From: a virus
DNA: 55,764 nt
Strand: one strand, 5' to 3'
Virus record (IMG/VR): IMGVR_UViG_3300035145_002852
Span: 1 to 55,764 of that record
Shown here: one piece after another, positions 41,671-55,681 of the stretch
How positions within the stretch are numbered: position 1 is the first letter of the stretch
Layout: the number at the start of each line of letters is the position of its first letter
The notes under the pieces: model-generated
What the model was told of the DNA's origin: nothing
What the model saw: only the letters and a program-made list of their open reading frames with translations
Databases searched by the model: none
Translations under genes and position numbers: made by a program

Positions 41671-41689
41671 CTAGTCCTCCTTATCGGGG

Positions 41690-41722
41690 TTATGTGTTGG
41701 AGTTTATTTTACCAACACATAA
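41690..41722 (-). promoter_or_regulatory. 11-bp perfect stem-loop in the spacer before the 203-aa gene
   Basis: TTATGTGTTGG (41690-41700) and CCAACACATAA (41712-41722) form a perfect 11-bp stem with an 11-nt AT-rich loop. On the minus strand it lies about 5 nt upstream of the AAGGAGG site of the 203-aa gene. There is no T-run after it. It may protect or process the mRNA, or partly occlude initiation. Confidence 0.5.
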
Positions 41723-41758
41723 ATCAACAACAAGAAAGAATAGAAAGACTATTACATT

Positions 41759-50400: not shown

Positions 50401-50721
50401 ACCTACAACGTCAGAGGAGAAAATAACATTCAGCTCTAACTTCCCATACGAAATATTGCTATTGAACGCAGTAATCTTAAAGTTATTTTGACCTGTAGAA
50501 AGATCAATGCCTTCTGAAAAAACATTTGGATTAGGGAAAGTAAACTGTCCGTTGTTTATATATACGTCTTCGGGAGAAGAAAAATTCGTATTCGCATATT
50601 CTATTTCTATACGAGTAGTCTCTACCGGCACTAGACCCCGTATATAAACTGTTTGTTGGCTTGTACTATAGTGGACAGGTGTTTCTACGGTATTCCCATC
50701 GGGCTTAATAATCTTAATCAT
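47446..50721 (-). CDS. Baseplate J-like protein (gp6/J family), long form
   Basis: J-family proteins form the baseplate wedge of contractile tails. The family signature starts around residue 450: SISIPTGTVVSS, a DFITT strand, YNPTTKKYSITVPVQALEAGLNGNL, then SAPTFGGTETETNSELASRAL and VGTKAGLERVSRSIAGV. An earlier block with AQPNIAVQAGSVVRDVIIDPF fits the usual N-terminal region. At 1091 residues it is much longer than typical P2-type J proteins. The first ~320 residues contain Ig/FN3-like strands (LSTPPSGLKVNRSNNSVEISF), and the C-terminal part has a second repeat-like J-type section. The ATG has GGAG upstream and overlaps the gp25-like stop (ATGA); its end overlaps the 1628-aa start, so wedge genes are coupled. 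Confidence 0.9.
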   Translation of the reverse strand: MIKIIKPDGNTVETPVHYSTSQQTVYIRGLVPVETTRIEIEYANTNFSSPEDVYINNGQFTFPNPNVFSEGIDLSTGQNNFKITAFNSNISYGKLELNVIFSSDVVGLSTPPSGLKVNRSNNSVEISFDHTDESVSYYNIYASSVSGGVLSNYFKINFEPLSPSKYGKREETSSLIKQISSDMSVEPVDPLFLELSVQQKDVSDVTLSNNVLDAFEVPETVSRVRISSSFQSVALKTRVSFNHFRNAEPTSIPPTIPVGVLSSTPLDKPLYYVATSVKVIGGVEVESAISSEVSGMPIQVTNTTLSLPVVGRDQMATDMIQSIFLAQPNIAVQAGSVVRDVIIDPFLSEMERVRFLLDFCYRSSSFSGLLSIDDPLNEGASISVEDSQYKTVLTQALFTTEDQVQYFIDSAFEKLASNFGVSRSIGKQASGEVEFFTTTTPTSSISIPTGTVVSSSTSDFITTLSVVMNVDQLSQYYNPTTKKYSITVPVQALEAGLNGNLTSDQINQGAPFGLKVTNSAPTFGGTETETNSELASRALATLSSVDVGTKAGLERVSRSIAGVVNSFVVDSESPFMQRDEGLGGKVDVWVRGESLATVSDIYAPSYQSHFESRFIPISTGYVFRNMEATVESPISQMIDRGNLGFGLRNLSTSTVFDLTNVTVLDYRTIQLDNTIPQPTYNVADNIVGDWRSNVSSKIVLKRQPVREIKAISYAEGTEISDFVFVDKEDALRLGRSSKSSDHVLITNDTTRNKIISITGEPHTVVGFYPERLGNLGVDQLSIVVSDVAGTTIYKSPFLNDSPDYTISRDSNDITYIQRTSDSAIKDGDVVHVSYEHLENIVVSYVTNLVVSNAQNSIDNSKNIFADIVVKEAIGCFVDIKATVVLDRGVRSTLVDSEIRYALTSFINESSLGGSIRHSEVVTVLNSVDGVNHVVLPLTQMSFAHDTYILRESISLGSSGFNRVPSLSNSRVSVWAIDSELLNKTQDLGGARGRVFIEKEEMRMLDTLERVNSPSWEHKTCTIVNDVGLGIEGIKTNNRILIALNIGESPSEYSYYVDYNVEGQIETVSELKLNNFSFFRTGDLNFTYEEVQ

Positions 50722-51761
50722 GTCAAATCTCCATCTAATGAAAACGAACCAGGAACAGCAAATACAAGGTTGATGCTTACTTGTTCACTAGACATACTCT
50801 CTGCCACAATAGAAACCAAATAAGAGGTTTCATCTTCTCCAATTGTAGAAACATCTATATTTACCACCCTACGCAATCTTTCTTTCAAAGACATATCTTG
50901 AATAGAGGCTTGCTGATCTTGGACATTCTTAAAAGTAGTAAGAGCATCACGAACAGACGCACGAAGGGACTGAACTACAGAAGCACTAACTTTACGACCA
51001 ATTAAAGTCATAGCGTTAGAGCCATACCAATTATGGTATGGGTTTGAGGTAATCTCTGTAAGAAGAACTTTAGAAAGAGACTGATAAAGTAGGTTGTGGT
51101 CTGCAATCGTCTTTATCCCACCTCTCTCATCAAATCTGAAGTCGTTCTCAACTCCTGTAGTTGCACACCTTCTGCAAAAATTCTTTTCTGTGATGTAAGA
51201 AACATCCACAATCCCGTCAAAACTCTCTTCTTTCTTGAAGAATATCTTGTATCCGCCTCCAAAACGCTTCTGTAAACCCCACTCTCCTATCTGCTTCTTA
51301 TTTCTTACGAAAACCTTAGTAGAAGCATACCCTAGTTTTGTCAAAGCTGTGCCTTTAAGAGATAAGCTCTCACTATTCTTTTGGTTGGTCAGTTTTACAG
51401 AAGACTCGTAAGGTTCGGCATACACGGGAAAGGCAAGCTCTTTGTTTAAGAAAGAAACCATCTCTTTCTGAGTAAATAGGAGGTCTGTTGGGAACTGTAT
51501 ATTTCTTTCTTTGCCGTCAGATAATACTAAGAGCGTATTTGTGCTTGAGGTAAAACGATAAGGAGCTGAAGAAGGGAACACAGTCTCAGATGCCAGCACT
51601 AAACCTTCTTTCGGTATTTCTTCCCCATTAAATCTTAAAACGAGAAGATTAGTAGAAGAAATAGGAGATTGGGTGGTTATTTCTCTACCACCCATAATTG
51701 TTGCCCTCTCATACCTTATATGGTGAGGACAAGCGTGTGCTAACAAAGCATCTTCGCTCAT
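50718..51761 (-). CDS. Baseplate wedge protein with gp25-like C-terminus
   Basis: A 347-residue protein. Residues ~222-347 (HNLLYQSLSKVLLTEITSNPYHNWYGS, then an alternating helix region and VNIDVSTIG...YLVSIVAES) match the overall pattern of gp25/GPW-like baseplate wedge proteins, which sit beside J/gp6 proteins as here. The first ~220 residues are an extra domain, with C11-PHH at the N-terminus and C196-RR-C199 just before the gp25-like part; together these could make one zinc site. The ribosome binding site AGGAG lies within the 3' arm of a perfect 22-bp hairpin, suggesting regulated or processed initiation. It overlaps the J-like gene by 4 bp. Confidence 0.7.
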   Translation of the reverse strand: MSEDALLAHACPHHIRYERATIMGGREITTQSPISSTNLLVLRFNGEEIPKEGLVLASETVFPSSAPYRFTSSTNTLLVLSDGKERNIQFPTDLLFTQKEMVSFLNKELAFPVYAEPYESSVKLTNQKNSESLSLKGTALTKLGYASTKVFVRNKKQIGEWGLQKRFGGGYKIFFKKEESFDGIVDVSYITEKNFCRRCATTGVENDFRFDERGGIKTIADHNLLYQSLSKVLLTEITSNPYHNWYGSNAMTLIGRKVSASVVQSLRASVRDALTTFKNVQDQQASIQDMSLKERLRRVVNIDVSTIGEDETSYLVSIVAESMSSEQVSINLVFAVPGSFSLDGDLT

Positions 51762-51818
51762 GTTTATTCTCCTAGAATGTTGTTAAATCTTCTCTCACAA
51801 CATTCTAGGAGAATAAAC
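51762..51818 (-). promoter_or_regulatory. Perfect 22-bp hairpin sequestering the gp25-like ribosome binding site
   Basis: Arms 51762-51783 and 51797-51818 are exact reverse complements over 22 bp with a 13-nt loop. On the minus-strand mRNA the 3' arm contains the AGGAG of the gp25-like gene and ends directly against its ATG, while the 5' arm holds the matching TCTCCT. The folded mRNA would hide the site. There is no T-run, so it is not an intrinsic terminator. Possibilities are an RNase III processing site, translational control, or a DNA-level protein site. Confidence 0.85.
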
Positions 51819-51832
51819 TAAATATTAAAAAC

Positions 51833-54800
51833 TCAGTTTCCGAGAGCTTTTTGTACTTTCTTTGCCGTCTTTCGCTTATCTGCATCTGTGGCAAGACTAT
51901 CCATGAAGTCAAGGCACTCATCAGAAATATCAGGGTCTGCAAGATCGCCTGTAATAGACTCTAAAGCCCAAACAGAGGAAAGATAAGCCAAGTCCATGAC
52001 TGCTGATCTAAACCACTCTAGCATAAGACGAGATCGTGCAATTCTGATCCCTTGGTCTTCTTTCTCGATCACGTTTTGGAAACCATCAATAATCGTAGTG
52101 GCGTCTGCCGAAGAAATACCAAAGTCTGAAGCAAGTCGCTCTACCATAAGAGCCTTCATGTCGTTCTGAATTTGAGAAATAGAGTGGGTTAGCTTTACCC
52201 CGTCCTCATTAGTGTAAGTCATTTTGTCACCTTTTATTGCGACATTGACTCGATCTTGTGAGAACTGAACGATCTCCAAAATAGGAGCATAAGCACCTGT
52301 AAAGAAAGACTCTGGAATAGAACCAATGCTCCCATCAATACTCTTATTCACTCGAAGCACATTGTCGAGTGCATCGACACCGAAAGTATTGTCGGGCATA
52401 ACCATAGTATTGTCTTTGTTGTCTATACCAAAGAAATCCATATGGTCTGCCATTCTAGGACTATACTTAGAACGCAAACCTCTTCTGAAGCTCTTGATAA
52501 GATCAATACCAATTTGAGCGTTTAAGAAATCATTAGGGAACTTCAAGTCACTTGACTGATAGACGCCTGTGCTAAAGTCTGCAAAAATGCTTAGACCCTG
52601 ATCTACTGCTTTAAAATACATCTTCATCAGTATCTTATTCGCTTTAGGGTCTGGTGCTGTAGGCAGACACTCTGAAAGATCAAGCAAACTGTTCAAAGAA
52701 GCTAGAGACATATCCATAACCTTAGCACTTCTGAGAACATCGTTGACATTCTTAAAGCCAAGGTTACGCTCCGCTTCGGTGACTTTTGCGTTGAGGTCTT
52801 CATATATCTTACTACGAATTGCCTGTGCTCTTTGCATCTTACGCTTTCGAGCACCTGTAAACTCGTTCTTGTCTCGGCTCTCTAGTAGATTCTCAAGAGC
52901 TTGCTGTATCCCCTGAGAAAGCTCTTTTCGAGTCTCCATCTCTTTATCTGAAAGCTCTTGCTCTATTTCTTCAGATGCACTGCTCTCTTTGTACTTAGCT
53001 TTAAGACCATCCACAAATGTTCTTCTAGCACTAGCGGCACTCTTGTACTCTTGTACGAGTCGGTCAGTTCCGCTGTCTATATCTAAGTTTTGCAAAGCGA
53101 CATAAATTGCAGACAGCTTTCTTTGAGCTACAGCATATTTCTGATCGTCTAAGCTAGTTTCAGATTGAGGTGGAACTTCTTTGTTGTCTACCATCAACTC
53201 AAGCTCGTCACCGTCAACTTGAACGCCCATAGCCTTCAAGATTTTAAGTGCGTCTTTGAGCTTATCTTCAACTTCGTCTTTCCAAGCTTTCTTGGCAGAC
53301 TCGTAGTTGTTCTTAGGGTCATTGTCATACTCAAAAAGATCACGATCAAAGTCAGAAGCTGAATACGCAACCGCACGTTGGCGGAACGCTTCTTCTTTTG
53401 CTTTCACTAGCTCACTCTTAGGTACGCTTCCTGTGTAAGCATCAATATTTCTCTCAACTGTAAGGACTCTCATGTCTGAGAGGTCTTGCTCTGTTGCCAC
53501 GCCTTCTGTAGTTAAGATATTCTCAGCGTCTGTATTCAACAAGTCCTCTATAGAACGCAACAACGCCATTTCTTTCACTGCGTCCATCTTGATCTTCTTT
53601 AAGAGTGCGTCTCTCTTTTTAAACCAAGAGTCACGGTCTATGATCTTCATGCTGTCGAGAGCGGTCTTAATCTTTTTCTTACCGTCAGAGTCAGAAATAA
53701 GACCACCAATCAAAAACACGCTCTCATTCTCGCTGAGGACTTCCTTCGCTAACTTTGTAACTTCTCTTGATGACAAATCAGTACGAACCTCTGAGATGGC
53801 TTCTTTGAGTACATCGAGTGGAGGAACTGTCGCTGAGGCGTATGGGAATTTACTGCTCTTGTCCTTCTCTCTTGAAGAAACCCAAGAGTTTGTAGGTGCA
53901 AGAAGAGTCTGTGAGGCACTGAGACGAACATCTTGGCGTGACTTGTTCTGTCTCCCTCTTCTTCTTTGAGGTCGAAGATCAGCCTCTAATCTCCCCCTAA
54001 AATCTGAAAGCATTTCTTCTGCTTTCGCTTTCTCCGAAGGGTCTGAAGACTTATAGAGCCTCCTCCACTCGTCTAACTTCTCGACATTGCCGAGACGACC
54101 CATAACAAACCGCTCTACATCTTCCTCATTCTTAACGAAATCGTTGGCATAGCCTGTCGCTAAACCTGAAAGATAAGCCCTACGGTCAGATTCAGACAAA
54201 TCGAGTATTTCTGGAGTAGAAAGATCACCTTTGTTCAGTCTTCTCTGATATAAGAGTTCTCTAACGCTATCAAACTCTGAAGGACTAAACTGATCCGAAG
54301 ATTGCTCAATCACCTTATTAATGATCTCAAGATGCTCCCCAACCTCAGCCATCGCTTTCTTGGTAGCTTTATTAACTTTAGAAATAGCACCAATGAAGTC
54401 AGAAATAATCTGAGTTGAGTCTGGATTTTGAACTAAGATGTTCTCCAAGATGCCCTGTAGTTCTTCTAGTTCATCTGCGTCTCCAACAACGTCCATCATG
54501 GTGTCTTTGTCTTGGAGGAAGCCTACATACTCTTGAAATGCTCTTCGATCACTATCTGTGATCCCACCCAAAGAAGAAGCAGTATCTCTCAAAAGCTGTC
54601 TTGAAATAAACTGCAAGTCAGTTTTCGCAACGTCTTTATGCTTTACCGCAGAAACAACGGCTTCTATAAAGTCTGAGCGAGCGTCTAATATTTCTTTACG
54701 CTCTTCAAGGGTAGTCTCTCTAGTGATGTCTGTCTTCGCAAGGTCAGCTTTATTTCTCTTGACCTCTTTGTATCTCTCTACAGACTCTTCTCTGCCTTCA

Positions 54801-55681
54801 ATCAAGTCAAAAATGCCGTCTGTTTTCTTCAACACGCTCTTATAAAGCTGTTGGTCTTCGTTGGCATCTGTGATCTCTCGCTCCATGTTCTCACCGATGA
54901 AGCTACGATCTACATACTTAGAAAGCTCTGCCTGTGCATACATCTTAATCTGATTATTAAAGTATTTGGCATCTTTGAGGATTCTCATTCTAAGACCTTT
55001 GATGCCTTGGAATTGAGTTCCTCTCATTCTTCTATTGTTGTAGAAGACATATGTTTTTGCATAGAGGGTAGACCTACCTTTAAAACGTAATTTCTTAAGA
55101 AGGTCTGATTTTAATGCACCCTGAAGCTCTGGAAGCTCTCGGAGAAATTCTTGAGCATAACTAATCTCTAAAATCTCATCTCTCTTGCCGACAGAAACTA
55201 ACTCTAAAATCTTACCTACGAAATACTCGTCTGAGGGGACACCTTGGATTTGAGTGATGTCTTGCTTAATTATAGTCCCAATCGCCTTATTGAAGTAAGA
55301 ATTAAAGTAACCTCGAACAGTACGGTGCAACTGCTCTAGGAATTTAACCTGCTTATTTCTACGCTCTAAAATATTTCGTGAAGAAATAAGCTCTTTCTTT
55401 TCTTTGTCAGACGCTAGTGTGTTGTATTCTCTGACATCTTCATAAGTGTTGAAAGTAGGACAAACACACAATCTGAAAAGATCGTCCATCAACACAAAAC
55501 CTTCTTCACCTTGGTGGTGTATGCTTGCACAAAGCTTGGCAAAGAGCTTAGAGCTTTCTGTTTCCACAATTCTCTGTCTATTTGCTCCTTGAATAGCCTC
55601 AAGACGGATACCCATGACGTGCAAGAGATAGAGATTCGTAGCTCTATCCACGCAAAGTTGTAAAATAGCCTCAGTGTTCAT
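51833..55681 (-). CDS. Large helical protein opening the tail block (1282 aa)
   Basis: ATG with GGAG 8 nt upstream; first gene of the visible minus block. The sequence is almost entirely charged helix and coiled coil (Lys, Glu, Asp, Arg, Leu), unlike the beta-rich proteins that follow. The N-terminal 90 residues hold a Cys/His group (C10, then LCASIHH and LCVCPTF), possibly a metal site. There is no transmembrane run of tape-measure type. The C-terminal 100 residues are more hydrophobic (SRLMLEWFRSAVMDLAYLSSVWALES). Its place just before baseplate wedge genes suits a tape-measure, scaffold or inner-tail protein, but no motif confirms any of these. Confidence 0.6.
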   Translation of the reverse strand: MNTEAILQLCVDRATNLYLLHVMGIRLEAIQGANRQRIVETESSKLFAKLCASIHHQGEEGFVLMDDLFRLCVCPTFNTYEDVREYNTLASDKEKKELISSRNILERRNKQVKFLEQLHRTVRGYFNSYFNKAIGTIIKQDITQIQGVPSDEYFVGKILELVSVGKRDEILEISYAQEFLRELPELQGALKSDLLKKLRFKGRSTLYAKTYVFYNNRRMRGTQFQGIKGLRMRILKDAKYFNNQIKMYAQAELSKYVDRSFIGENMEREITDANEDQQLYKSVLKKTDGIFDLIEGREESVERYKEVKRNKADLAKTDITRETTLEERKEILDARSDFIEAVVSAVKHKDVAKTDLQFISRQLLRDTASSLGGITDSDRRAFQEYVGFLQDKDTMMDVVGDADELEELQGILENILVQNPDSTQIISDFIGAISKVNKATKKAMAEVGEHLEIINKVIEQSSDQFSPSEFDSVRELLYQRRLNKGDLSTPEILDLSESDRRAYLSGLATGYANDFVKNEEDVERFVMGRLGNVEKLDEWRRLYKSSDPSEKAKAEEMLSDFRGRLEADLRPQRRRGRQNKSRQDVRLSASQTLLAPTNSWVSSREKDKSSKFPYASATVPPLDVLKEAISEVRTDLSSREVTKLAKEVLSENESVFLIGGLISDSDGKKKIKTALDSMKIIDRDSWFKKRDALLKKIKMDAVKEMALLRSIEDLLNTDAENILTTEGVATEQDLSDMRVLTVERNIDAYTGSVPKSELVKAKEEAFRQRAVAYSASDFDRDLFEYDNDPKNNYESAKKAWKDEVEDKLKDALKILKAMGVQVDGDELELMVDNKEVPPQSETSLDDQKYAVAQRKLSAIYVALQNLDIDSGTDRLVQEYKSAASARRTFVDGLKAKYKESSASEEIEQELSDKEMETRKELSQGIQQALENLLESRDKNEFTGARKRKMQRAQAIRSKIYEDLNAKVTEAERNLGFKNVNDVLRSAKVMDMSLASLNSLLDLSECLPTAPDPKANKILMKMYFKAVDQGLSIFADFSTGVYQSSDLKFPNDFLNAQIGIDLIKSFRRGLRSKYSPRMADHMDFFGIDNKDNTMVMPDNTFGVDALDNVLRVNKSIDGSIGSIPESFFTGAYAPILEIVQFSQDRVNVAIKGDKMTYTNEDGVKLTHSISQIQNDMKALMVERLASDFGISSADATTIIDGFQNVIEKEDQGIRIARSRLMLEWFRSAVMDLAYLSSVWALESITGDLADPDISDECLDFMDSLATDADKRKTAKKVQKALGN

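Follow-up and report, generated by a model that had tools for sequence, protein, structure and literature searches.

A hairpin over the ribosome binding site of a gp25-like phage baseplate gene as a probable promoter-linked lock against read-through mRNA

The window analyzed here is the whole 55,764-nt stretch of the IMG/VR virus record IMGVR_UViG_3300035145_002852. On its minus strand lies a gp25-like baseplate gene of 347 aa (50718..51761), the first in a run of tail and baseplate genes. The identification as gp25-like, though weak, has support: the protein matches the baseplate wedge family PHROG 43 with an E value of 6e-6 and Pfam Sheath_initiator with an E value of 8e-4, the latter below the cutoff of that family, and the gene next to it matches Baseplate_J (E value of 4e-17). 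The upstream gene (51833..55681, minus strand) encodes a 1282-aa protein without a family match, is co-directional with the gp25-like gene, and is the presumed source of read-through transcripts. A spacer of 71 nt separates its end at 51833 from the ATG at 51761 and carries a hairpin, which was correctly placed by an initial annotation of this DNA between the 1282-aa gene and the baseplate genes. The same annotation described the genes as otherwise packed at 4 to 14 bp, which is not true everywhere, since the window has other spacers of 45 to 88 nt.

The inverted repeat (51762-51783/51797-51818) has arms of 22 nt that are 100% complementary, as had been claimed, and a loop of 13 nt. It is the single instance of such a repeat in the window, where about 2e-7 perfect 22-bp hairpins are expected by chance. 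Read on the minus strand, the 5′ arm (51797..51818) is followed by the loop GAGAGAAGATTTA (51784..51796), which together with two stem bases makes up the conserved GTGAGAnAAnATTnA, and then by the 3′ arm ACAACATTCTAGGAGAATAAAC (51762..51783), which abuts the ATG of the 347-aa ORF (51761..50718). The 3′ arm contains AGGAG (51769..51773), which by its sequence is the Shine-Dalgarno (SD) element of the gp25-like gene, 7 nt before the ATG, and the 5′ arm contains the anti-SD CTCCT (51807..51811), which pairs with it (51773-51769). The ribosome binding site is thus hidden inside the stem, as the initial annotation held, with a predicted unpaired probability of 0.0 in read-through RNA. An RNA of 131 nt from the plus strand, where the inverted repeat is equally present, folds with -45.6 kcal/mol (z = -7.3; 0 of 200 shuffles as good), and the minus-strand RNA of 130 nt likewise gives -45.6 kcal/mol. 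The sequence directly 3′ of the stem is ATGAGCG rather than the T-run of an intrinsic terminator. A search of the hairpin against Rfam returned sub-threshold matches only, mostly to microRNA models, which long stems match in general.

The 5′ foot of the stem overlaps a promoter-like box, TTAATATTTAGTTTAT (51813..51828, minus strand), which agrees with the extended consensus of the box, TTAATAGTTTNTTTAT, at 13 of 15 positions. Its terminal GTTTAT forms the stem foot, and the anti-SD CTCCT occupies offsets +2 to +6 past the box. It is the only match of at least 13/15 on either strand of the window (0.25 expected), and the consensus is found 6 to 64 times per relative contig, compared with 0 to 4 times in shuffled sequences. 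In the upstream regions of G021, a relative of 375 kb, two motifs recur, TAGTTTNTTTAT and GTAACCCCTTA; the former occurs 41 times in G021 (0 by chance) and 12 times in G013 (0.3 by chance). The core TA-N5-TTTAT is more frequent upstream of genes in the sense than in the antisense orientation in all larger contigs, and a similar core precedes the stem in the gp25 homologues. We infer that its promoter class is probably late; weighing against this, the box also precedes a UvrD-like helicase gene and a ribonucleotide reductase gene. No multi-subunit RNA polymerase was found in the search for one. Sigma-70 region 2 gave weak, below-cutoff matches in frames of 208 to 273 aa from three relatives (G019:C1:241730-241882, G010:C1:270952-271134, and G005:C1:3272-3478), which are candidate phage sigma factors for reading the box. 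A second promoter-like motif, GTAACCCCTTATCTAT, has 62 copies of its core in G021 (L253-L271) and 40 in G018 (L294-L305), with 0 expected; a helicase gene and one for an AAA-type protein are among those it precedes, and SD pairing is absent from it.

Relatives were collected by IMG/VR searches and range from 97% down to about 25% protein identity. In all, 19 distinct sequences have the hairpin in front of this gene, the most divergent at about 39% identity. At or above about 39% identity, all distinct relatives except L035 have a strong hairpin directly 5′ of the ATG, and their best SD candidate lies within its 3′ arm. The stem sequences are almost wholly different between subgroups, yet the pairing is retained. 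We compared the arms by hand, anchored at the loop, because automatic alignment misaligned stems of differing length, and counted 9 compensatory pairs between L045 and L048 and 10 between the window and L048. Among 255 aligned pair positions, 228 are Watson-Crick, 16 are G·U, 1 is A·C, and 10 are other. The claim that the stem is maintained by selection is supported by this compensatory change. The excess of G·U over A·C mispairs indicates that the pairing structure is in the sense RNA, and a DNA dyad or cruciform was rejected on this ground. The dyad operator suggested by the initial annotation is also at odds with the freedom of the stem sequence to change and with the orientation effect described below.

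The hairpin is not uniform among these relatives. The absence of a T-run, as first described, holds for the window and fails in L045, L217, and L048, where a T-run follows the stem as in a terminator and might also stop read-through at the level of transcription. L045 has an additional terminator-like hairpin upstream, yet the SD hairpin is retained. In L002, the stem is interrupted where the SD lies (predicted unpaired probability of 0.52 for the SD in read-through RNA), which points to a weaker lock there, while the upper stem is preserved. The gp25 homologues without a strong hairpin (L035, L168, and L171) have an upstream neighbor on the opposite strand, whereas the neighbor is co-directional in nearly all of those with a hairpin; in L048, which has the hairpin, the immediate upstream neighbor is an opposite-strand gene fragment. 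No such hairpin was found in relatives of about 30% identity with a co-directional upstream gene. In L050-L104, which are about 30% identical and mostly GC-rich, the hairpin is replaced by a recurrent CCTATA(G) about 25 to 45 nt before the gp25-like start, possibly the promoter of that group.

The box-hairpin arrangement, of which the window hairpin is among the strongest instances, recurs at many other genes, an extension that, like the box itself, the initial reading of the hairpin lacked. As a measure of pairing, we took the score of the strongest duplex that the 12 nt following the box can form with the final 20 nt upstream of the start codon, with swapped partners as the control. With gp25 excluded (n = 235), the pairing of the leader with its own SD region scored 12.97, compared with 10.36 for swapped partners (z = 18; 0 of 300 swaps as high). 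The control motifs GTAACCCCTTA, CATATAA, and AAAGA showed no such signal. After removal of similar leaders (n = 158), pairing was found in windows starting about -5 to +10 from the box end and was gone from +13; the signal is limited to about -5 to +18 around the box end. The mean pairing excess was +4.25 where the upstream gene is co-directional (n = 94) and +0.47 where it is divergent (n = 63), with a P value of 2.6e-6 after deduplication; genes in the relatives were called by a longest-ORF rule, and as the genomes are related, these tests are not phylogenetically independent. Strong hairpins were present in 30 of the 94 co-directional and 4 of the 63 divergent leaders. This concentration at co-directional upstream genes is expected if the hairpin silences read-through mRNA, and the direction effect is predicted by a read-through device and not by an mRNA stabilizer, a DNA operator, or a general repressor site. 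Once gp25 is set aside, G013 and G005 lack the general pairing signal, and the orientation effect was not significant when the box was restricted to its strict form AGTTTNTTTAT (P = 0.66).

The stems of these other leaders are 8 to 15 bp long. Between phages, apparent orthologues, judged by their N-termini, have hairpins whose stem sequences are unrelated; examples are the FKRNQIL protein (G019, G010, and G013) and a C39-like peptidase (G019 and G021). A protein family starting with MRRSASExxRxLExRIARLE (L256, L257, L262, L267, L327, L328, and others) is often encoded behind a TTAATAGTTTNTTTAT box with SD hairpins; the short N-terminus that its members share resembles a signal for virion packaging or cleavage. 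A further case is a small protein (L266:653-1228 and L295:258-818, both on the minus strand) that has hydrophobic, holin-like stretches and no family match; in both phages, its gene has an SD hairpin of 10 to 11 bp behind the box. The window itself contains a second leader element (41671-41758, minus strand) before a 203-aa gene, a hairpin TTATGTGTTGG/CCAACACATAA followed by CCCC and GGAGG; the hairpin-CCCC-GGAGG layout is retained with a different stem sequence at the orthologues in L117, L239, L309, and L333.

The position of the transcript start bears on whether an RNA made from the box would carry the anti-SD. A purine peak at +16 after the box (0.77 and 0.75 in the co-directional and divergent sets) and the finding that the SD rarely begins before +15 are hints in the sequence of a start near +16. 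The predicted unpaired probability of the SD in the window rises from 0.0 in read-through RNA to 0.36 with a start at +7 and 0.57 with a start at +12. For strong co-directional leaders, the median predicted accessibility is 0.0 in read-through RNA and 0.66, 0.59, and 0.52 in RNAs from +7, +12, and +16, respectively, and in 82% of them the predicted unpaired probability in read-through RNA is below 0.1. The predicted gain is small, from 0.0 to about 0.13 to 0.25, in several class B relatives and in L040.

We therefore suggest that the hairpin is most likely a promoter-linked translational lock against read-through mRNA, although L045, L048, and the hairpin-free relatives of about 30% identity weigh against it. 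An mRNA reading through from the upstream gene would carry both arms, the ribosome binding site would be buried, and gp25 would not be made. An mRNA from the gene's own promoter would begin in the 5′ arm or the loop, would not contain the anti-SD, and would be translated from a free SD. Synthesis of the baseplate would thereby be tied to the use of its own, probably late, promoter. Formation of the lock would be independent of the activity of the box, and its opening would need an RNA start downstream of the anti-SD. Transcripts starting inside the loop, which had been named as evidence against the first reading of the hairpin, would be the own-promoter transcripts, and the stem would form on read-through RNA. 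A translational switch had been among the functions first proposed and appears probable; the check suggested with it, a comparison of relatives for compensatory changes, had a positive outcome.

A comparable lock is known from T4. On early read-through mRNA of genes e, soc, 49, and I-TevI (and also of segB and Aeh1 mobE), a hairpin hides the SD and is absent from the late mRNA, and for gene e the repression on long transcripts is about 100-fold (PMC3014915, PMC2988022). The likeness to the locus studied here extends to the SD in the 3′ arm and its sequestration in read-through mRNA (by prediction here), to a promoter (here the promoter-like box) that overlaps or adjoins the DNA for the 5′ strand, and to co-directional upstream transcription (here the 1282-aa gene, 71 nt upstream). 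The box at the foot and the purine peak at +16 suggest that own-promoter transcripts may lack the 5′ strand here as well. The differences are that the box resembles TTAATAGTTTNTTTAT and not the T4 late promoter TATAAATA, that the anti-SD lies within about 16 nt directly after the box, and that the arrangement occurs at many genes per genome, here as read from sequence alone. T4 gene 25, a baseplate gene of the gp25 family, likewise has a conserved stem where translation starts; as PMC3014915 relates it (Nivinskas 1999; Malys and Nivinskas 2009), that stem lies between the SD and the AUG, shortens the distance between them, and enhances translation. Here, AGGAG is inside the 3′ arm, 7 nt before the ATG, which is not the split ribosome binding site outlined in that account.

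The lock does not fully account for the loop before gp25. In class A relatives, the loop GUGAGAnAAnAUUnA is conserved while the stem turns over, and it normally occurs once per contig, before gp25, even in a contig of 312 kb; G001 has one extra match without such a hairpin. Class B relatives have a different loop. A pattern search of viral contigs for the loop with ATGAGY returned 63 stretches, with strong stems almost only at gp25. A motif search in the loop regions of other leaders gave weak, unspecific signals and confirmed no general element, and a genome-wide promoter element in the loop is not supported. A small leader peptide from a GTG in the loop was also rejected, as its reading frame is not retained among relatives on inspection of the sequences. 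The arm-loop junction of the gp25 leaders lies at +15 to +17 after the box, and the conserved loop may be what is transcribed first when the gene uses its own promoter.

The conserved loop also speaks for another explanation, in which a phage or host RNA-binding protein recognizes the loop and regulates gp25 translation, with the hairpin as its operator. The T4 gene 43 and RegA operators (PMC3014915) are likewise RNA sites that coincide with a ribosome binding site, and in gene 43 some loop bases are conserved. However, the arrangement here goes together with a promoter box and with the orientation of the genes, and the repressor is hypothetical; an operator does not explain why a box stands at the foot, why the arrangement recurs at other genes whose loops are unrelated, or why orientation matters, and the loop is another one in class B. 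We consider an operator unlikely. Searches for RegA (PF01818, in 12 records) and for the RegB family gave no hits, but the controls were equally silent, which makes these negatives uninformative. A 5′-terminal stem that mainly shields its own mRNA from decay, with incidental SD pairing, would fit a box that could put the RNA 5′ end near the stem, and would fit L002, where the upper stem outlasts the SD part. Such a stem should be indifferent to the direction of the upstream gene, yet pairing depends on it (P = 2.6e-6), and the match of the arm is specific to the SD region of its own gene, which makes protection from decay quite improbable.

Two further explanations concern the polycistronic transcript. 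A terminator before the gene, stopping read-through during transcription, would be consistent with the orientation effect and with the T-runs after the L045, L217, and L048 stems, but no T-run follows the stem in the window or in most relatives. A terminator scan found none at the window stem and none in L045, whose structure may exceed the loop and bulge limits of the scan, and we regard termination as very unlikely. The window stem is long enough for RNase III, and processing by this enzyme has classical precedents in other phages, so that cleavage might free the SD or separate the messages. Nevertheless, the other leaders have stems of only 8 to 15 bp, neither the box nor the orientation effect is predicted by cleavage, and no phage RNase III was found in the family search. 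The proposal that cleavage sets the ratio of the two genes obtained no specific support, and this explanation seems highly improbable.

Returning to the promoter-linked lock, the read-through lock has so far been described, in the papers we found, for a handful of T4 and related genes, and the open-access literature yielded no report that extends it to all members of a promoter class. We think it reasonably likely that, in this large-phage clade, the promoter-to-start spacer of an entire, probably late, promoter class stores gene-specific anti-SDs, each lock being opened only by its own promoter, and that the gp25 loop is in addition a conserved initiation or binding element. If the lock is routine in a promoter class of large phages, it would constitute a general, protein-free means of silencing genes in dense, co-directional genomes. 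If this is true, the promoter class and gene timing would be predictable from metagenome sequence alone, and the arrangement would provide a simple design rule that is testable by reporters.
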